Source of the DNA: Terriglobia bacterium
Lineage (GTDB): Bacteria; Acidobacteriota; Terriglobia; Acidiferrales; UBA7541
Direction: 5' to 3'
Assembly: GCA_020072765.1 (NCBI GenBank)
Contig: JAIQGD010000052.1
Span: 1-42,370, forward strand
Length of the DNA: 42,370 nucleotides
Every line of letters starts with the position of its first letter. Position 1 is the first letter of the stretch. The notes below the pieces were generated by a model. It was given only the letters and a program-made list of their open reading frames with translations. It did no database searches and was not told where the DNA came from. Position numbers and translations under genes: made by a program. Shown here one piece after another: positions 1 to 8,815 of this stretch.

Positions 1-232
1 CGAGCACCGAGGCCAGCAGCATCAGCAGGCCCTCGAACCCGTCTTGGCTGATGGCCCAGCGCTCCAGCAGCAGGGCCGCCCCCAGGCTGGCGGCGCAGGC
101 CGCCAACACGCCTGCCCACACGAAGCTCTTCAGGGCGGAGCGTCCGGTGCGATTCAGATACACCAGTACGATGCCCACGACGAGCGCGGCTTCGACGCCT
201 TCCCGGAGAGCGACTAGCAGGGCAGAGAGCAT
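1..232 (-). CDS. FTR1-family iron permease, N-terminal part (cut by window edge)
   Basis: Reading the minus strand from the ATG at 232 gives an open frame to the window edge: 77 codons beginning MLSALLVALREGVEAALVVG. FTR1/EfeU permeases carry an REXXE iron-binding motif in their first membrane helix, and REGVE is seen here at residues 10-14 inside a hydrophobic segment. Further hydrophobic segments follow (about residues 34-50 and from 63). Members import oxidised iron across the cytoplasmic membrane, usually with a cupredoxin, cytochrome or peroxidase partner. No partner is visible because the downstream side lies outside the window. It is divergent from the secretin gene. The family call is fairly firm; substrate and partners are inferred. 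Confidence 0.8.
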   Translation of the reverse strand, partial: MLSALLVALREGVEAALVVGIVLVYLNRTGRSALKSFVWAGVLAACAASLGAALLLERWAISQDGFEGLLMLLASVL

Positions 233-269
233 AATTTCCAGTGGCAAACCAGTTGCAACTGACTTTCCC

Positions 270-299
270 AGTCTAGCCCCCGGCCTCCTCATAAATCAA
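270..299 (-). promoter_or_regulatory. Sigma70-type promoter for the FTR1 gene, with a palindrome at the start point
   Basis: On the minus strand, TTGATT (299-294) and TAGACT (275-270) are separated by 18 nt. The predicted start point is about 262, 30 nt before the ATG at 232. A 10-bp perfect palindrome, AGTTGCAACT (251-260), sits at or just past that point and could be an operator. It does not resemble a Fur box. Recognised by eye only. Confidence 0.45.
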
Positions 300-411
300 G
301 AAGTTTTACGCCCTCGGGAACGATGCTTTCCTCCGGATGGCCGCATCTTAGTCCCGGGGGCCTGCCGGAGTAGCGCTCTAGCCTGGACGCGCCGGGCATG
401 GGCATTCCCTG

Positions 412-417
412 TACAAT
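412..417 (+). promoter_or_regulatory. -10 box (TACAAT) before the secretin gene
   Basis: TACAAT at 412-417 lies 18 nt before the ATG at 436, so the leader would be only about 12 nt. No good -35 hexamer is seen at 16-18 nt spacing, and no Shine-Dalgarno sequence precedes the ATG. Confidence 0.35.
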
Positions 418-435
418 AGCCATCCGGCTGATGCC

Positions 436-3400
436 ATGACAAGGCGACACCCATCACTAATCCGTGCCGGGGCCGCTGCCCTGGTACTGCTGCTTCCGGT
501 CACGTCGATCTGTCCGTTGCTCGCGGGGGCCCAGGCAGCGGCCGCGCCCAACGCGCCTGCACAATCGCGGCCGGCCGGTCCCACGATCAAGCCGGATGCC
601 AGGAAGGCCCGGGAAGCCTACCAGCAGGGCCTCCGCGCCGAACAGAAGCAGGATTGGCAATCGGCTCATGCCGCCTACTCCGATGCGGTGAACTGGGCGC
701 CCGAGAACCGCGAGTATCAGCTGCGGCGCGAGATTGCCAAAAGCCGCCTGGTGCAGGAGAAAATGGACGCCGCGGAGCGCGACGCCGTTTCCGGCCGCCT
801 GGACGCTGCGCGCAAGGAACTGGTGTCCGCCAGTTACCTCGACCCGTCGAACGCCGTGGTGCGCGAGCGCCTCGCGGAACTGGCTGCCGCTGAGCCGGGC
901 ACCGTCCGCGAGGCGCACGAGCCGGATCTGGCGGGACAATTGCACCTCGCCTACCAGCCAGGGACGCGCAGCTTCGACTACCGGGGGGATACCCAGGGGG
1001 CCTATCGGGAGATCGCGCGCCAGTTCGGTGTGGAGGCTGCGTTCGACGTGGACCTGCTGGCCCGGCCGGTCCGCTTCCGCATGGACAACATCGATTTCCT
1101 GACGGCCGCGCGGCTATTGGGCGAGATGACGAGGACGTTCTGGCGGCCTCTGACGCGCCGCCTTTTTTTCATCACCGAAGACTCCCCGCAGAAGCGCCGC
1201 GAATATGAGCCCTCCATCGTGCGCACCGTGGTGCTTCCCGCCTCGCAGACGCCGGAGCAGATGACCGAGCTTTTGCGCCTGGTCCGCGAGGTCACCGGGA
1301 TCACGCGCGCGGACCTGGACGCGCACGACCGCACGCTTACGCTGCGCGCTTCGCCCCGCGCCATCGCCCTGGCCGCCGATCTGATCGACGACCTGGAAAA
1401 GCCGGCGGGAGAACTGATTCTCGAGATCGAAATTCTCGAAGTGGATCGCAACTACGCGCGCCAGCTGGGCATTACGCCGCCCCAAGGGGCTCAGGTGTTC
1501 ACGTTCAGCGCCCAGCAGATTCAGGAGGCGGCATCGTCCTACGCCGGGCTCCTCAACGTCATCGAGCAGGTCTTCGGGGCGTCGGCGAGCTCCGCGTTTC
1601 CGCCGCTGCTCGCTTTCGGAGGCGGGCGGACTACTTTTCTGGCCACCCTGCCGGGCGCCGCGGCGAACTTCTCGCGGATGCTGTCGCTGGTGCGCCATGG
1701 CCGGCGGATTCTGCTGCGCGCGCAGGATGGCCGCGCGGCCACGTTCTTCGTCGGCGACCGCATTCCCGTGACGCTGTCCCAATATGCGGCGAGCCTGCTG
1801 ACGGGATCGATCGGCGGCGCCAGCGGTTTGGTGAAGCCGATCACGAATTATGCGGCCGGAACTGCGCCGTCCTTCATGGCCACCGCCAGCCTGCGCGGCG
1901 ACGGTATCAACGACCTGATCGTGGCGAACGCGGCCGACAGCACCATCTCGGTCCTGCTCGGAGACGGCCAGGGCGCTTTCGCGTCCCAGGTAACCTACCC
2001 GTCCGGCACGCAGCCGGTTTCCATCGCCACCGGACAGTTCAACAACAGCACGGCCCTCAGAAACAGCGACAGCTTCCTGGACCTGGCGGTTGCCAACCAA
2101 GGCGCCAACACGGTTTCGATCCTGCTCGGCAATGGCGATGGCACCTTCCGGCCGAAAACCGATATCCCCACGGGGACGGCGCCCGTTTCGGTGATTGCGG
2201 CGGACTTCCATGACCTGGCTGGGACGGGTTTCACCGATCTGGCGGTCGCCAACCAGGGCGACGACACGATTTCGATCTTTCAAGGCAACGGCGACGGCAC
2301 CTTCAAGACGCCGACGCTGGTCCACCTTCCGGCAGGCTCTGCGCCGCGCGCGCTGGCGGCGGCCGACCTGAACAGGGACGGCCACATTGACCTGGTGGTT
2401 GCGGATCAGGGCCACAACACGGTCTCCGTTTTTCTCGGCAACGGCGATGGAACCTTTCAGGCGCCCACCGATTACCCCACGGGTAACTCTCCGGTGTCCG
2501 TGGCTCTGGGAAGCTTCACCGGGAACGGCGCCCTGGATATCGCCGTGGCCAACAGCGGAAACTCCGTGACCGTGTACTTTAACCAGTTGAGCAGCACCTC
2601 CGTGCCGCTGGGCCAATTCGTTGCGGGACCGACTCGAGATTTCGCGGCCGGCAACGGCCCCACCTCGATTGTGGTGGCCGACTTCAATGGCGACGGGAAC
2701 GCCGATCTCGCGGTCTCGGACCAGGCAGACAACGCCATCACCATTCTGTTGAACGCCGGCAACAAGCTCTTCACCGCTCTGCCCCAATTGCCGGTGGGGA
2801 CGGCACCGGCCTCGATCGCGGCGGCCGATTTCAACGGGGATGGCAGGCCCGACGGCGTCACGGCGGACAGCGGAGCGGCGGAAGCCACCGTCATTCTCAA
2901 TTCCACGAGCTTCTTTGGCGCGGGCATCAGCTCGATTGGCACGCCCTTCCCCGGTGTCCAATATCTCGATATCGGACTGAAGGTGAAAGCCACGCCGCGC
3001 ATGCATCCCGATGGCGACGTCACTCTGCAGCTGGGCTTCGATATCAGCAGCCTGACCTCGCAAAGCTTCAACACCATTCCCGTCATCCGCAGCGAGTCGC
3101 TGAATCAGACGGTGCGCTTGAAGCAGAACGAAACCGCGGCGCTGGCCGGTTTCCTGCAATCGCAGGTGAGCAATTCCATCACCGGCGCCCCCGGAATCGC
3201 CGGACGGCCGGGCATCGGCTGGCTGGGACAGAATCAGCTCGTGCAGAAGCAGGACAGCGAGTTATTGATTCTCGTCACGCCTCGTTTGGTCCGCCTGGCG
3301 CCTCACCCGGACCACGCCATTTATGTCGGCCATGGTTCTCTAGACGGCGCCAGCGCCGCTGCTCCCGGACTGTTCTCCATGCCGCAGCCGCAGCCACCCC

Positions 3401-3450
3401 CGGCGCAAGCTCCCCCGGTCTCGCAGCCGGTGCCGCCCTCCGAGCGTTAG
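436..3450 (+). CDS. Type II/III secretin-family protein with TPRs and an internal FG-GAP propeller
   Basis: 1004 residues. Order seen: signal peptide (about 1-36); two or three TPR-like helical repeats (about 55-150); a secretin N-domain region (about 170-330) with the typical ring-building pattern ending in LILEIEILEVDRNYARQLGI; first part of the secretin barrel domain, ending FFVGDRIPV (437-445); seven FG-GAP/VCBS-type repeats (about 470-828); then the rest of the secretin domain, from VQYLDIGLKVKATPRM (841 on) through LLILVTPRLV; and a Pro-rich tail. Secretins form outer-membrane multimeric channels in type II, type III and type IV pilus systems. The barrel's two conserved halves are both present, so the propeller is an insertion, not a replacement. 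No other secretion gene is adjacent. The pathway it serves is unknown. The start at 436 gives a full signal peptide. Confidence 0.85.
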   Translation: MTRRHPSLIRAGAAALVLLLPVTSICPLLAGAQAAAAPNAPAQSRPAGPTIKPDARKAREAYQQGLRAEQKQDWQSAHAAYSDAVNWAPENREYQLRREIAKSRLVQEKMDAAERDAVSGRLDAARKELVSASYLDPSNAVVRERLAELAAAEPGTVREAHEPDLAGQLHLAYQPGTRSFDYRGDTQGAYREIARQFGVEAAFDVDLLARPVRFRMDNIDFLTAARLLGEMTRTFWRPLTRRLFFITEDSPQKRREYEPSIVRTVVLPASQTPEQMTELLRLVREVTGITRADLDAHDRTLTLRASPRAIALAADLIDDLEKPAGELILEIEILEVDRNYARQLGITPPQGAQVFTFSAQQIQEAASSYAGLLNVIEQVFGASASSAFPPLLAFGGGRTTFLATLPGAAANFSRMLSLVRHGRRILLRAQDGRAATFFVGDRIPVTLSQYAASLLTGSIGGASGLVKPITNYAAGTAPSFMATASLRGDGINDLIVANAADSTISVLLGDGQGAFASQVTYPSGTQPVSIATGQFNNSTALRNSDSFLDLAVANQGANTVSILLGNGDGTFRPKTDIPTGTAPVSVIAADFHDLAGTGFTDLAVANQGDDTISIFQGNGDGTFKTPTLVHLPAGSAPRALAAADLNRDGHIDLVVADQGHNTVSVFLGNGDGTFQAPTDYPTGNSPVSVALGSFTGNGALDIAVANSGNSVTVYFNQLSSTSVPLGQFVAGPTRDFAAGNGPTSIVVADFNGDGNADLAVSDQADNAITILLNAGNKLFTALPQLPVGTAPASIAAADFNGDGRPDGVTADSGAAEATVILNSTSFFGAGISSIGTPFPGVQYLDIGLKVKATPRMHPDGDVTLQLGFDISSLTSQSFNTIPVIRSESLNQTVRLKQNETAALAGFLQSQVSNSITGAPGIAGRPGIGWLGQNQLVQKQDSELLILVTPRLVRLAPHPDHAIYVGHGSLDGASAAAPGLFSMPQPQPPPAQAPPVSQPVPPSER
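1843..2919 (+). other. Seven FG-GAP/VCBS repeats inserted in the secretin domain
   Basis: Codons 470-828 of the secretin gene. Seven units of about 45-60 residues share the pattern: (Y/D)xxGxxPxSxxxADxNxDGxxDLxVANxxxxTVSVxLGNGDGTF. Units begin near residues 470, 517, 575, 628, 677, 733 and 783. Several carry NGDGN or NRDGH-type calcium-binding loops. FG-GAP repeats build beta-propellers, and seven is the usual blade number, so this stretch probably makes one complete propeller. Its ends would lie close together and could sit on a loop between two barrel strands. The repeat count is seen; the fold is inferred. Confidence 0.75.
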
Positions 3451-3570
3451 TGGACGGTCTGGCCGACGCTTCTGGCCCCGTGAGGCGAGTCGCCCGCGTT
3501 GCTCCGCCGATCACATCCGCCGCACGCCGGGCCCGGAGTTGAGCGGGTGATGCGTGTACACTAGATGAGT

Positions 3571-3576
3571 TAGACT
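3571..3576 (+). promoter_or_regulatory. -10 box (TAGACT) six nt before the hydrolase ATG
   Basis: TAGACT at 3571-3576 would place the start point on or next to the ATG at 3583, giving a leaderless transcript. A second -10-like TACACT lies at 3557-3562. Neither has a clear -35, and no Shine-Dalgarno sequence precedes the ATG. Confidence 0.35.
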
Positions 3577-3582
3577 GCGCTG

Positions 3583-4596
3583 ATGTCCTGGTTCGAGCAA
3601 ACAATCCGCCGCTACGAGCACATGCGCTGGGCGCAGGAGCCCAACCGCCCCGTCCGGCCGTTTTCCTGGGGGCTGGAACATATCGGCGGCGATGCCGGCG
3701 AACCCGACCCCCGCGGGTTCCTGGACCGTTTTGTCGGAGAAACCTTGGCGCGCAGCAGCGACTGGTACGGTGTGACGCCCGCCGAGGATTACACGCTGCG
3801 GGACAACGTCCTCACGTTCACCAGTCAGATCGCTTCGCCCTGGCCGGAAAACAATCGCGTCTACGGCCAGCTATTTCCCGCGAGCCGCCGCGGCCCGGCC
3901 GTCGTCGTCCTCGCCCAATGGAACGCGCGCTGGGAGGAACAGCAAAACGTCTGCCGCTGGCTGAATCGCATGGGCATCACCGCCGTCAAAATCAGCCTGC
4001 CGTATCACGATAAGCGCGCCGTTCCCGGCCATCCCCGCGCGGACCATCTGGTCGGCGCCAATGTCGGCCTGACCCTGCAGGCCAATCGCCAGGCGGTCAC
4101 CGACGTGCGCCGCACCCTGCGCTGGCTCGAGCAGCAGGGCTACGACCGCCTCGGAATCCTCGGCACCAGCGTCGGCTCCTGCATCGGATTCATCACCATG
4201 TGCCACGAGCCCGCCCTGCGCGCCGGAGCGTTCCTGCACGTCTCCACCTACTTCGGCGATGTGGTGGCCAACGGCCTCACCACCATCAACGTCTGGGAAT
4301 CGCTGGCCACCCAACTCTCCCACGACGATGTGCGCCGTTACTGGTCGCCCATCAGTCCCTTTCCGTACGTCTCGAAACTCCAGGGCGCGCCCAAGGACAT
4401 CCTCCTGATCAGCGGCCGCTACGACCCCACCTTCTGGCCGGAGTTCACCGACGCGTTCCTGGCGGAAATTCGTGACGCCGGCGTGGATTTCGAGAGCCTG
4501 TCGCTGCCGTGCGGCCACTATTCCCTCGGCGTCGCGCCCTTCAGCTATATCGTCGGCTATCGCTTCGGCACCTTCCTCCGTCGATCCCTGGCGTAG
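3583..4596 (+). CDS. Alpha/beta hydrolase (ABHD18-like)
   Basis: 337 residues without a signal peptide. The core fold follows from AVVVLAQWNARW (strand and oxyanion region), the nucleophile elbow GTSVG with Ser196, an acid candidate Asp281 in SGRYDP, and the catalytic His312 in CGHYS. All three members of the Ser-Asp-His triad are therefore present. A long N-terminal part (about 1-100) precedes the hydrolase core, as in the ABHD18-like group. The substrate is unknown; esters or lipids are plausible for the superfamily. It stands alone between the secretin gene and the small 4771 gene. The ATG at 3583 is the first start in frame and lies just after a -10-like box. Confidence 0.75.
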   Translation: MSWFEQTIRRYEHMRWAQEPNRPVRPFSWGLEHIGGDAGEPDPRGFLDRFVGETLARSSDWYGVTPAEDYTLRDNVLTFTSQIASPWPENNRVYGQLFPASRRGPAVVVLAQWNARWEEQQNVCRWLNRMGITAVKISLPYHDKRAVPGHPRADHLVGANVGLTLQANRQAVTDVRRTLRWLEQQGYDRLGILGTSVGSCIGFITMCHEPALRAGAFLHVSTYFGDVVANGLTTINVWESLATQLSHDDVRRYWSPISPFPYVSKLQGAPKDILLISGRYDPTFWPEFTDAFLAEIRDAGVDFESLSLPCGHYSLGVAPFSYIVGYRFGTFLRRSLA

Positions 4597-4770
4597 CCTA
4601 CCGTGTTTCTGTGTGGCGATATCGCCCAAGGGCTCTGTGCCGATGCGGCACAGCATCGCCGGTCCGCTGCACCAATGCGCGTCATTTCACTGCTTACCGC
4701 GTGCTCTGGTGAGGAGGCCGGCTAAAGCCCGAAGCAGCGTTGCCGATGAGCCAGTGAGAGGTAATCCACC

Positions 4771-4974
4771 ATGGCAAACCCAGTGAGCACTGTGTCGAGC
4801 AGCCAGCAGGCCGCGCACGTTGAGGCGGCTCAGGCTGCGCAGGCCAGGCAAGCTTCCCAGCAGAAACCGGCGAACCCCGCCGCCCCTCAGGACACCGTGA
4901 AGATCAGTGCCGCGGGCCGGGCCGCCAGCCAGGCCGGTTCCGTCGACAGCGATCACGACGGCGACAGCAAATAG
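4771..4974 (+). CDS. Very small Ala/Gln-rich protein, function unknown
   Basis: 67 residues, 35% or so Ala/Gln, with no membrane segment and no cysteine. It reads as a low-complexity helical N-terminal half, then the string DTVKISAAGRAASQ (about 42-55), and an acidic Asp/Ser-rich tail. A Shine-Dalgarno-like GAGAGG lies about 8 nt before the ATG, and a terminator-like hairpin follows the stop, so it looks like a real monocistronic gene. The DTVxIS motif recalls short segments in flagellar or anti-sigma-type small proteins, but this is too weak to assign a function. Confidence 0.55.
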   Translation: MANPVSTVSSSQQAAHVEAAQAAQARQASQQKPANPAAPQDTVKISAAGRAASQAGSVDSDHDGDSK

Positions 4975-5004
4975 CAGGCCGCAAGTCCCAGGACAATCAC
5001 GCAC

Positions 5005-5034
5005 AAGCCCGCTCCGCTCGTCCGGGGCGGGCTT
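5005..5034. terminator. Hairpin between convergent genes
   Basis: AAGCCCGCTCC (5005-5015) pairs with GGGGCGGGCTT (5024-5034), an 11-bp stem with one G-U pair and an 8-nt loop. It lies between the small gene ending at 4974 and hutH ending at 5058 on the other strand, so it could stop transcription both ways. There is no long T-run. Confidence 0.5.
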
Positions 5035-5057
5035 CGGGCCGCACGCGCGGAAGAGCG

Positions 5058-6575
5058 TCAGCGCACCAGCGCGCTGAGCGTGCCGCCGGCGATCTCGCGC
5101 GCCAGCAGCTCAATATCCGGCGCCAGCGAGCGGTCCGCGTCCACGCGTTTGGAAATCGCGCGCACCCTATCGTAGGCCTTGCCGGTCTCCGCTCCGGTGC
5201 GCAACGGTGCGAGCAGGTCGATCCCCTGGCAGGCCGCCAGGAGCTCGATCGCCAGGATGCGGCGCACGTTGGCAAGCATCGGCTCGATCCGGCGCGCCGC
5301 TCCCATGCCCATGGACACGTAGTCTTCCTGGTTCCCGGACGTGGGAATCGAATCCACCGAATGCGGCGCGGCCAGCGCCTTCAACTCACTGGCCAGCGCG
5401 GCGGCCGTCACCTGCAGGATCATGAATCCGGAATTCAGTCCCGCCTCGCGCACCAGGAATGCCGGCAGGCCGCTGGTCTGCGGATTGGTCATCTGCTCGA
5501 TGCGCCGCTCGGAAATCCCTCCCAGCGTGGCCAGCGAGACAGCCATGTGATCGGCGGCCATGGCCAGCGGCTGCCCGTGAAAGTTTCCGCCAATGATCAC
5601 CTCGCCGGTGTCGGCGAAGACCAGGGGATTGTCGGTGGCGCTATTGAGCTCGATGGTGAGCGTTGCGCGCACGTGCCCCAGCGCATCGCGCACCGCTCCG
5701 TGCACCTGCGGCGCGCACCGCAGGCTGTACGGGTCCTGCACGCGGCGGTCCTGCGCGGGCGAGCGGTGCGATTCGCGGATTTCGCTGCCTCGGCTCAGCC
5801 GCTCGATGTGGCGCGCCGTCGCCGCCTGCCCCGCGTGGGGGCGCACTCGCGCGATGCGCGCATCGAACGCCGCGGGACTGCCGCGCAGCGCATCGAGCGA
5901 AAGCGATGTGGCCACGTCCGCGGTGTCCACGGCGATTTCCGCTTCGCGCAGAGCCAGCGCCAGAAGCGCCAGCATCGCCTGCGTCCCGTTGAGCAGCGCC
6001 AGGCCCTCTTTGGCTTCCAGCACCACCGGAGCGACTCCCGCCGCGCGCATGGCTTCGCCGCCCGGCATCCGGCGCCCTTCGAAGATGGCTTCGCCCTCGC
6101 CGATCACCACTTGCGCCAGATGCGCCAGCGGAGCCAGATCGCCCGACGCTCCCACCGAGCCCTGCGAGGGAATCACCGGATGCACGCCGCGGTTCAGCAT
6201 GGCCGCGAGCGTCTCCGCGATCACCGGCCGCACGCCCGAAAATCCCTTGGCCAGCGCGTTGGCGCGGAGCGCCAGCATGGCGCGCGTGGCGGGCTCGCTG
6301 AGCGGCGCGCCCACTCCGCACGCGTGGCTGCGCACCAGATTCAGCTGCAGGTGCCGGATTTCGGCGGCCGAAATGCGCGTGCTGGCCATTTTCCCGAAGC
6401 CCGTGTTGACGCCGTAGACCTGCGTCCCCGATTCGACCACGCGCTCGATGACCGCGCGGGAGGCGTTCATCCGCTCGCGCGCCTGCGCCGGAATCTCGGC
6501 CGCCGCGCCGTCGAATACAATGCGGTGCAGATCCTCGAGCGTAAGGTGCTCGCCGTCGATGGGTATCGCGCTCAT
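5058..6575 (-). CDS. hutH: Histidine ammonia-lyase
   Basis: 505 residues, the usual length. It converts L-histidine to trans-urocanate and ammonia in the cytoplasm, the first step of histidine breakdown. The tripeptide Ala143-Ser144-Gly145, in GSVGASGDLAPL, is the precursor of the MIO electrophile. YGVNTGFG (Tyr54), the GNFHGQP segment and QEDYVSMGMGAARR near the C-terminus are all family signatures. It is the last gene of the leftward run and starts 4 nt after the thioesterase stop, so it is probably co-transcribed. No hutU, hutI or hutG is in the window. Confidence 0.96.
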   Translation of the reverse strand: MSAIPIDGEHLTLEDLHRIVFDGAAAEIPAQARERMNASRAVIERVVESGTQVYGVNTGFGKMASTRISAAEIRHLQLNLVRSHACGVGAPLSEPATRAMLALRANALAKGFSGVRPVIAETLAAMLNRGVHPVIPSQGSVGASGDLAPLAHLAQVVIGEGEAIFEGRRMPGGEAMRAAGVAPVVLEAKEGLALLNGTQAMLALLALALREAEIAVDTADVATSLSLDALRGSPAAFDARIARVRPHAGQAATARHIERLSRGSEIRESHRSPAQDRRVQDPYSLRCAPQVHGAVRDALGHVRATLTIELNSATDNPLVFADTGEVIIGGNFHGQPLAMAADHMAVSLATLGGISERRIEQMTNPQTSGLPAFLVREAGLNSGFMILQVTAAALASELKALAAPHSVDSIPTSGNQEDYVSMGMGAARRIEPMLANVRRILAIELLAACQGIDLLAPLRTGAETGKAYDRVRAISKRVDADRSLAPDIELLAREIAGGTLSALVR

Positions 6576-6579
6576 GGTG

Positions 6580-6993
6580 CTACGCCCGGCCGGGCGGAAA
6601 ATACTTCCGGTACTTTTCGGGAAGCGACCGCGGCCGGCCCTGCCGGTCGCAGATGACGTGCATGGTCTCGCCCGTGGCCACCACCTCGCCCGAGGCCTGC
6701 TGGACGATTTCGTATTCGAACGAGATGATGCGCCGCTTGGATTCGCTGACGCGCGTGCGAATGGTCAGCAGGTCGTCGAAGCGCGCCGGATTCTTGTAGC
6801 GGCACGACGCTTTGGCCACCACCAGCATGCTGTCGTCGTCGATCTCCATGCGCTTGTATTCGAATCCGAGCCGGCGGCAGAACTCCACGCGGCCGATCTC
6901 GAACCACGTGAAGTAGTTGCCGTAGTACACCACGCCCATCTGGTCCGTCTCGGCGTAGCGCACGCGCACCGTTGTTTCCGCGTAATCGCTCAT
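6580..6993 (-). CDS. YbgC/4HBT-family acyl-CoA thioesterase
   Basis: 137 residues with a single hot-dog domain. The signature VRYAETDQMGVVYYGNYFTWFEIGR contains the Asp (residue 17) used for catalysis in the 4-hydroxybenzoyl-CoA thioesterase/YbgC group. It should hydrolyse short or aromatic acyl-CoA esters; the exact substrate cannot be read from sequence. The ATG at 6993 (MSDYAETT) is chosen because the longer frame upstream runs through the 3' end of the hydratase gene in another frame and has no homology. It lies 7 nt after the hydratase stop and 4 nt before hutH. Confidence 0.88.
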   Translation of the reverse strand: MSDYAETTVRVRYAETDQMGVVYYGNYFTWFEIGRVEFCRRLGFEYKRMEIDDDSMLVVAKASCRYKNPARFDDLLTIRTRVSESKRRIISFEYEIVQQASGEVVATGETMHVICDRQGRPRSLPEKYRKYFPPGRA

Positions 6994-7000
6994 TGGATGT

Positions 7001-7768
7001 TTATTCCCCGGCCCATTTCGGCGCGCGTTTTTCGAGAAACGACGATACGCCCTCGCGAAAGTCCGCCGTCGAGCGGATCTCCGCGTTTTCCCGCACCGCC
7101 ATCTCGACTTCCCGGTCGAGCGCCGCCTCATCGTAGCGCAGGAGCAGCCGCTTGGTGCGCGCGATGGCTTCCGGGCTGGCGGCGAGCAATTGGCCGGCAA
7201 TCGCCCGGGCGCGAGCGGCCAGCCTCTCGGCCGGCACAATCTCCGTCACGAGTCCGAGGCGCAATGCTTCGCCCGCTTCGATGATGCGCCCGCTCAGCAG
7301 CAAGTCGCGCGCCGCCTTCTCGCCGATCTGCCGCCGCAGAAACACCGAGACGATCGCGGGAGCGAAGCCGATTTTCACCTCGGGATAGCCGAACGTCGCC
7401 TCCGGCGCGGCCAGCGTGAAATCGGCCAGCGTGGCGATGCCGCATCCTCCGGCGATGGCCGGGCCGTTGACCGCCGCGATCAGCGGCTTGGGAAAGCTGT
7501 GCAGGCGGCGAAAGAAGACCGCCGCGCGCCGCGAATCCTCCAGGTGCTCGGCGGGCGACATGGCCGCGGTCGCCCGCAGCGCATCGAGGTCCATCCCGGC
7601 GCAAAACGCCTTTCCCGCGCCGGTAACAATGGCGGCGCGAGCCGGACTCGCCTCCGCTTCCCGGAGGGCGGCGAGCAGGTCGTCCATCATCTGCATGGAG
7701 ATGGCGTTGCGTTTCTCGGGACGCGCCAGCGTGATGGTGGTGATGGCGCCCTCGCGCGCGAGCGTCAC
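7001..7768 (-). CDS. Enoyl-CoA hydratase/isomerase family, LiuC-like (methylglutaconyl-CoA hydratase)
   Basis: About 255 residues of crotonase fold. RPEKRNAIS, GKAFCAGMDLDAL (oxyanion loop) and NGPAIAGGCGIATLADF are seen. The first catalytic Glu of classical crotonase (GGGxE) is Gly here, while the second is kept in FGYPEVKIGFAPAIVSVF. This EVxIGxAPAxxSxF pattern matches, from memory, bacterial LiuC-type 3-methylglutaconyl-CoA hydratases. The neighbours (MCC beta type and HMG-CoA lyase type) point the same way. Start: the frame is open back to a GTG at 7837, but that codon lies in a dispersed palindrome (7832-7852) and its extra residues have no hydratase similarity, so I prefer the GTG at 7768. 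No Shine-Dalgarno sequence decides this. Confidence 0.85.
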   Translation of the reverse strand: MTLAREGAITTITLARPEKRNAISMQMMDDLLAALREAEASPARAAIVTGAGKAFCAGMDLDALRATAAMSPAEHLEDSRRAAVFFRRLHSFPKPLIAAVNGPAIAGGCGIATLADFTLAAPEATFGYPEVKIGFAPAIVSVFLRRQIGEKAARDLLLSGRIIEAGEALRLGLVTEIVPAERLAARARAIAGQLLAASPEAIARTKRLLLRYDEAALDREVEMAVRENAEIRSTADFREGVSSFLEKRAPKWAGE

Positions 7769-7831
7769 GGTGAGGAAGAGAAGAAGGCAGACCGTTAGTT
7801 TCTTGAGGATGCTGTGGCCGGTTTTCCGTAG

Positions 7832-7852
7832 GGGCACGGCACTGCCGTGCCC
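7832..7852. repeat. Perfect palindrome, dispersed intergenic type
   Basis: GGGCACGGCA (7832-7841) and TGCCGTGCCC (7843-7852) are 10-bp arms around one base. It lies between the HMG-CoA lyase and hydratase genes. The G+C make-up and TAGGGG flank (7829-7834) resemble the element at 37,355-37,394. Confidence 0.7.
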
Positions 7853-7933
7853 GCCTTCAGCTCATCGTGCGATTCCGACGCACCCGCACACATCACTTCG
7901 CTTTTCATCCGATGTTCTTGTGAAGGTGTCCGG

Positions 7934-8815
7934 CTAATTCGGCCGCGGGGCTTCCGCGTCGTGCGCGTATGTCTCGCGCAACGCGCCGGTCATGGCGCAA
8001 GCGATGGCCAGCGACTTCGCATCGATGCCGGTGGCCACGCCCCGCGCTGCTAACGTCGTCAGCACCGTCTCGGTGGCGATGTTGCCCACCAGCGCATCGC
8101 CTGCGAATGGGCAGCCGCCCAGGCCCGTCAGCGCGCCGTCGAAGCGCCGGCAGCCCGCCTCGTAGGCCGCCAGAATCTTTTCGGCGGCGCCTTCCGGCCG
8201 GCTGTGCAGATGCACGCCGATCTCCACGCCCGCCACGCAGTCCTTGACGGCTCGGTAAAGGTCCGCGACATCCTCCGGCGACGCCGCTCCCACCGTATCC
8301 GCCAGCGACACGGTGCGCACGCCCGCGCCCTTGAGCCACACCAGCGTCTCCTCGACGATCTCCGGCCCCCACGGCTCGTCGTAGGGATTGCCGAAAGCCA
8401 TCGAGATGTACACGACCAGCCGCCGCCGGGCGGCCTTCGTGTCGCGCTGCATCTTTTCGACCAAGGTGCGCGTCTCCGCGCGCGACATGTTCACATTCGC
8501 CCGCCGAAAATAGGCCGAGATCGAGTACGGGTAGCCGATCGTGGTCACGCCGGGAGTCGCCAGCGCGCGTTCCAGCCCTTGCTCGTTCACCACAATGCCG
8601 ATGATCTCCGGCGCCTCGCCCGAAGGCAGCCGCGCCTGCGACACCTGCTGCATCACCGCCTCGCTATCGGCCATCTGCGGCACATGCTTGGGCGAAACGA
8701 AGCTCACGGCGTCAATATGCTGAAATCCGAGCGCCACTAATCCCGCCAGGTATTTGATCTTCTCTTCGGTGGGGATAATCTTCTGCAATCCCTGCCACGC
8801 ATCCCGCGGCTTCAC
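7934..8815 (-). CDS. Hydroxymethylglutaryl-CoA lyase-like protein
   Basis: 293 residues, a DRE-TIM metallolyase. It should cleave HMG-CoA to acetyl-CoA and acetoacetate, the last step of leucine breakdown. Seen: PRD (Arg4-Asp5) at the very N-terminus, SFVSPKHVPQMAD, metal-binding HLH (His202, His204), and the signature GLGGCPFAGDALVGN with Cys235 and Asn244. Oddities: the protein starts almost at the PRD motif, the usual PRDGLQ is PRDAWQ, and the Glu that follows it in classical enzymes (VIEATSFVSP) is Asp35 here (HIDAVSFVSP). Its GTG start overlaps the stop of the carboxyltransferase by 4 nt (GTGA), which suggests translational coupling. A related lyase activity on another CoA ester cannot be excluded. 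Confidence 0.88.
   Translation of the reverse strand: MKPRDAWQGLQKIIPTEEKIKYLAGLVALGFQHIDAVSFVSPKHVPQMADSEAVMQQVSQARLPSGEAPEIIGIVVNEQGLERALATPGVTTIGYPYSISAYFRRANVNMSRAETRTLVEKMQRDTKAARRRLVVYISMAFGNPYDEPWGPEIVEETLVWLKGAGVRTVSLADTVGAASPEDVADLYRAVKDCVAGVEIGVHLHSRPEGAAEKILAAYEAGCRRFDGALTGLGGCPFAGDALVGNIATETVLTTLAARGVATGIDAKSLAIACAMTGALRETYAHDAEAPRPN

Follow-up and report, generated by a model that had tools for sequence, protein, structure and literature searches.

Domain organization of an orphan secretin

The analysed window, a stretch of 42,370 nucleotides taken at its full length, carries close to its start a secretin gene whose features are collected in Table 1. The encoded protein begins with a signal-peptide-like segment (residues 1-34), in which no obvious lipobox was seen, followed by a TPR-type domain, two periplasmic domains and a secretin barrel that is interrupted by a β-propeller. 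An antisense open reading frame of 681 aa (1114-3159, minus strand) runs across the same region and was provisionally attributed to high GC content. A gene fusion or mis-assembly artefact was excluded, since many genomes, and also three separately titled MAGs, carry the same uninterrupted frame.

Table 1. Features of the secretin gene, with positions in the window and residues of the encoded protein.
Feature	Position	Strand	Basis or remark
Orphan secretin gene with propeller in central gate	436..3450	+	1004 aa, one open frame
Signal-peptide-like N-terminus, residues 1-34	436..537	+	Sequence; AlphaFold2 (AF2) helix 9-18, low pLDDT
TPR-type helical domain, residues 55-152	598..891	+	AF2 helices; NCBIfam TraC and Amuc_1098 N-terminal matches
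N0-like periplasmic domain, residues 178-248	967..1179	+	AF2 model; L144 model matches
Secretin N-type (ring-building) domain, residues 261-321	1216..1398	+	Weak Secretin_N match 273-324; fold
Secretin barrel part 1, residues 326-447	1411..1776	+	Inner-barrel strands 419-430 and 435-446 lead into gate
Gate pivot glycine 1, G440 = XcpD G466	1753..1755	+	5wln alignment, PMC10550240
Gate arm and flexible tether 1, residues 448-466	1777..1833	+	pLDDT <50 at 449-466
Seven-bladed FG-GAP/VCBS propeller, residues 467-826	1834..2913	+	Pfam, AF2, structure matches
Flexible tether 2, residues 827-840	2914..2955	+	pLDDT <50 at 828-839
Secretin barrel part 2, residues 841-955	2956..3300	+	PF00263; PilQ, GspD and SctC model matches
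Gate pivot glycine 2, G847 = XcpD G496	2974..2976	+	5wln alignment, PMC10550240
Proline-rich C-terminal tail, residues 956-1004, predicted disordered	3301..3447	+	Sequence, AF2

The secretin domain (PF00263) is recognized at residues 832-953 (profile positions 43-169; E 1.7e-24, 86.7 bits against a cut-off of 27.5). This hit covers only the second part of the domain, since the insert separates it from the first, which lies upstream. A sequence-only reading of this DNA had placed the split between FFVGDRIPV (residues 437-445) and VQYLDIGLKVKATP (residues 841-854), and both motifs lie where it put them. In an AlphaFold2 monomer built on an alignment of 44 homologues (pTM of the full model 0.46) the barrel is undisturbed, with strands 419-430, 435-446, 841-856, 861-878, 881-896, 901-916 and 933-953 all present.

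A structure search with the full model was filled by matches to the propeller, and an insert-less relative (L144) was therefore modelled to test the secretin part. The L144 model displayed the same barrel strands and matched PilQ, GspD, InvG and pIV; its N-terminal regions matched N0 of PilQ (4ar0), EscC N0-N1 (3gr5) and, for the TPR region, a BamD-like fold (Z about 10). The window protein reached neither the GspD equivalog cut-off (67 versus 351 bits) nor that of PilQ (61 versus 284 bits), scores that are both lowered by the insert and by missing domains. By analogy with other secretins, it would be expected to assemble into a 12-15-mer.

The FG-GAP repeats reported earlier at 1843-2919 (residues 470-828) are present, although their limits shift slightly, to 1834-2913 (residues 467-826). 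Between the two secretin motifs, Pfam reports FG-GAP_3 with E 2.6e-51 (172.5 bits against a cut-off of 26.9, with six stretches passing individually) and FG-GAP with E 2.8e-15. The count of seven units agrees with the AF2 model, in which the inner strands start at residues 478, 527, 583, 637, 686, 742 and 791; blade 5 is degenerate. The model also bears out the idea of a closed propeller that sits on a loop with its ends meeting. Indeed, strand 469-473 forms the last strand of blade 7, giving a Velcro closure. The propeller is modelled with pLDDT values mostly >90 and is flanked at both ends by low-confidence tethers. Structure comparison matched residues 466-832 to the propellers of integrin-alpha and aldos-2-ulose dehydratase (Z about 34, rmsd 2.7-2.9, about 330 residues).

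The propeller (36.0 kDa) is very acidic, with a pI of 4.05. The DxNxDG Ca2+ loops between strands A and B are intact in blades 4, 6 and 7, and a loose form of the motif occurs 1-8 times, mostly 3-6, per propeller among 45 orthologues. The best reading of these sequences is a predicted Ca2+-binding propeller of the VCBS/integrin-alpha type. Members of this group (PF13517, PF01839; integrin alpha4beta7) share with it the seven blades, the A-B Ca2+ motif, the C-D GxGxGxF motif and the Velcro closure; unlike these relatives, the window propeller is placed inside a membrane-channel loop.

Orthologue entropy shows conservation within the propeller on the inner strands and the C-D-loop side, while the B-C loops (2.07 bits), D-A' loops (2.11 bits) and strand D (2.24 bits) are the most variable elements. 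The strand order has both tethers leaving from the C-D-loop side, which suggests that the variable face is directed away from the gate. This outward face (loops B-C and D-A') is likely to be the binding face, and relaxed constraint would account for the divergence of the exposed loops equally well. Sugars had been proposed as possible ligands, an idea that gained no special support here: the GW motif found in the D-A' loop of the sugar-binding propeller relatives tachylectin and PVL (PMC8023676) is absent, and the loops read xGxxP instead.

The insertion site in the central gate

The gate site was read from an alignment of the window protein to XcpD/XcpQ (5wln chain). Two pivot glycines bound the central gate of XcpD (residues 466-496), whose tip carries T477 and S480 (PMC10550240). 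Positions 432, 443, 446 and 462 of 5wln are G, T, S and G, and adding 34 gives the published XcpD residues G466, T477, S480 and G496. In this alignment the loop bearing the propeller is the central gate (Gate 1), with the insert at its tip between the pivot glycines, and the term 'gate', already used for the insert in the sequence-only reading, is thus anatomically right (PMC10550240). The propeller starts about 27 residues past pivot 1 and stops about 20 residues ahead of pivot 2, and G440 is invariant in the homologue alignment. From pivot to pivot there are 31 aa in XcpD, 41 aa in the GspD-like paralogue of the same host, 41-46 aa in insert-less relatives and 385-453 aa in whole insert-bearing genes. 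This anatomy is well supported.

The double-walled barrel strands, pivot glycines, N-type and N0 domains and central gate are shared with XcpD/GspD of type II secretion (5wln, 5wq7) and PilQ of type IV pili (6w6m). In GspD and PilQ, however, the gate loop is a domain-free segment of about 30-45 residues, whereas the window protein has a 360-residue propeller at the gate tip; it also differs in its N-terminal TPR repeats and in having no adjacent system genes. The cap or top gate of Vibrio-type GspD is likewise an optional extra closure within a secretin. That top gate is a β-hairpin at the apical lip, between alpha10 and alpha11 (PMC10550240), whereas in the window protein a folded domain extends the central gate; the insert sits between the central-gate pivots and no apical-lip insertion of the Vibrio type was found. 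PilY1 of type IV pili offers a further parallel, being a Ca2+-dependent propeller that works alongside a secretin-based machine (PMC8833165); PilY1 is a separate pilus-tip protein and not part of the secretin, and the likeness is one of parts, with homology not implied.

Distribution, history and genomic setting

Gate lengths were compared in 43 homologues and then in twelve more. The insertion proved to be conserved in place and length, with dozens of genomes carrying it at one site. Together with the intact barrel strands, this runs counter to both outcomes that the sequence-only reading had named as refuting. Candidatus Acidiferrum and related uncultured Acidobacteria from soil make up the host family, which includes Candidatus Acidiferrum typicum (L006, identical to L168 of genome G094). 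An orthologue is present in 84 of its 89 genomes, and the long gate in 12 of its 13 genera; genus g10 alone (two genomes) has short-gated proteins, of 618-620 aa. Syntenic orthologues with a short gate are also found in the two other families of the order. With or without the insert, the orthologue locus is flanked, within the limits of the contigs, by EfeU plus an ABC transporter and, at the opposite end, by truB-rbfA-infB-nusA.

A tree was calculated from 400 columns, with the insert left out and with outgroups that lack it. Two changes are needed to place the insert on this tree. Since g10 is nested inside the family (support at the nearest fork 94/90), one gain on the family stem, followed by long retention and one loss in g10, is well supported. 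That g10 dropped the insert and yet kept the gene indicates that the insert is not essential to the pore.

The loss in g10, together with the variable exposed loops and strand D (entropy about 2.1-2.2 bits), would suit a neutral passenger, in which a closed propeller is tolerated in an exposed loop and drifts there without a role. This is very unlikely. Near-constant length and seven-blade spacing are kept in 12 of 13 genera, the fold and the Ca2+-loop residues are conserved, and neutrality is hardly to be expected of so bulky a group at the seal of a pore.

Two relatives carry Ig-like domains inside the propeller, three Big_2 domains in L174 (G064:C136; 697 aa from pivot to pivot) and two He_PIG domains in L178 (G067:C92; 607 aa), so that a domain is nested in a domain that is itself nested in a secretin gate. 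Such additions require free space around the propeller. One orthologue (L148, G007:C432) is divided into two frames of 183 and 803 aa, by either a frameshift or an assembly error.

Outside this family, no propeller-secretin junction was found among the matches listed for 396 genomes of the phylum, with at most seven candidates scored per genome. Inspection of ten further secretins, mostly of unusual length, showed short gates in nine; for the tenth (L181) the match was located outside the barrel. A pattern scan covered genome contigs, and none of 77 further loci encoding similar FG-GAP proteins had a relative of the window secretin. In the open-licence literature and databases searched, no description was found of a secretin with a propeller, FG-GAP or VCBS repeats, or a gate insertion.

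No pilus, secretion or platform genes lie beside the gene, either in the window or at the loci of relatives, and the window gene is thus an orphan secretin. The label 'secretion system' is therefore unproven. The host has three other secretins: one of Tad type beside its ATPase (contig C62), a PilQ beside PilM (C131) and a GspD-like protein beside a pseudopilin gene (C99). The last of these (L003) matches a cohesin-like domain at its C-terminus (PF00963, E 3.5e-5). An F-E-PilM-like platform is encoded on host contig C119.

The lack of an ATPase or platform near this orphan gene, in a host whose other secretins adjoin their own machinery, would fit a surface adhesin or receptor, in which the secretin mainly anchors a ring of VCBS propellers and transports little or nothing. 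Moreover, in binding proteins VCBS propellers are often combined with Ig-like domains (PMC8023676), a pairing also seen in L174 and L178. The retention of N0, the N-type domain and the two pivot glycines nevertheless speaks for a gate that works and opens, and a simple anchor needs no gate site; a role as anchor is accordingly judged unlikely.

Upstream of the gene in relatives, and in a second copy of the gene start at a contig end of the same assembly (L163, G000:C120:1-1115), lie a conserved divergent FTR1/EfeU iron permease with a cysteine-rich C-terminal extension and a MacB-like ABC permease with its ATPase. This cluster may be akin to FTR1-P19-type iron uptake clusters, which it resembles. 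The second copy, which repeats the gene start and EfeU fragment of window positions 1-996 with 95-98% identity, points either to variant strains within the assembly or to duplication of the end. A functional tie to EfeU is not claimed: the gene order is conserved, but several insert-bearing loci have no adjoining EfeU. Downstream (3451-8815), the gene is followed in the window by an RcgR-type hydrolase and hutH, as against truB-rbfA-infB-nusA in nearly all relatives; the host truB lies on a separate contig (C47), which points to rearrangement or an assembly join.

Space at the pore and a model for the gate

Protein occupies a volume of 1.21 cubic Å per Da, and a propeller is about 3 nm thick. 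The 36.0-kDa propeller would thus fill about 43,500 cubic Å, and 15 copies about 653,000 cubic Å. In pIV the inner barrel is 90 Å wide, and the barrel plus N3 is 96 Å high (PMC8563730); a cylinder of 90 Å × 96 Å holds at most about 611,000 cubic Å. The pivot glycines lie about 8 nm apart across the pore, and an outward flip of the gate loops has been proposed (PMC7545093); 14 subunits would have an arc of about 1.8 nm each. Both the volume and the arc are too small, and the propellers cannot therefore all fit inside if a normal secretin ring forms.

With regard to membrane side, substrate and function, we infer a working model to which a probability of roughly 0.5 is given: each subunit would carry its propeller on two flexible tethers, and the propellers together would form a gate-linked crown or stopper with ligand-coupled gating. 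Too bulky for the lumen, they would stand as a crown, or as a stopper or plug, at the gate and beyond the lip, the simplest arrangement. Such a crown would most likely be extracellular, the side to which open gate loops swing. As the propellers are tied to the gate hairpins, ligand binding, propeller packing or both would be coupled to opening and sealing of a channel that would carry some cargo. It counts against this model that the locus has no linked gene for a cargo, platform or partner.

The main rival would be a periplasmic cluster, in which the propellers sit below the gate in the vestibule, as a plug or as a substrate receptor that recognizes cargo before export. Tethers of about 18 and 12 residues permit either side and could equally let the propellers hang into the periplasm; the propellers would fold there ahead of ring insertion, and the N0 and N-type rings provide a vestibule. 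Crowding arises here again, however, with a pIV channel about 74 Å wide at N3 (PMC8563730) and with relatives that add about 200-300 residues of Ig-like domains per subunit, and the proposed opening of the gate loops is outward (PMC7545093). We regard this placement as doubtful, though conceivable. Also doubtful is a ligand-gated outer-membrane receptor channel, in which a ring of 12-15 external integrin-like propellers, one per gate loop, would open or close the central gate upon binding of an external ligand or Ca2+, for uptake or controlled release.

In the crown or stopper model, a propeller on the gate loop would change both the opening of the pore and what it may bind. How secretin gates open and how tightly they close is an open question, so far probed by point mutations and cysteine locks in the short loop. 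The family offers a natural matched pair for gate movement, channel capacity and sealing, with gates of about 41 aa and about 400 aa. Overall, a 36-kDa folded domain has been carried on the gate loop across a bacterial family and removed again in one genus, which suggests that secretins may bear a built-in binding crown.
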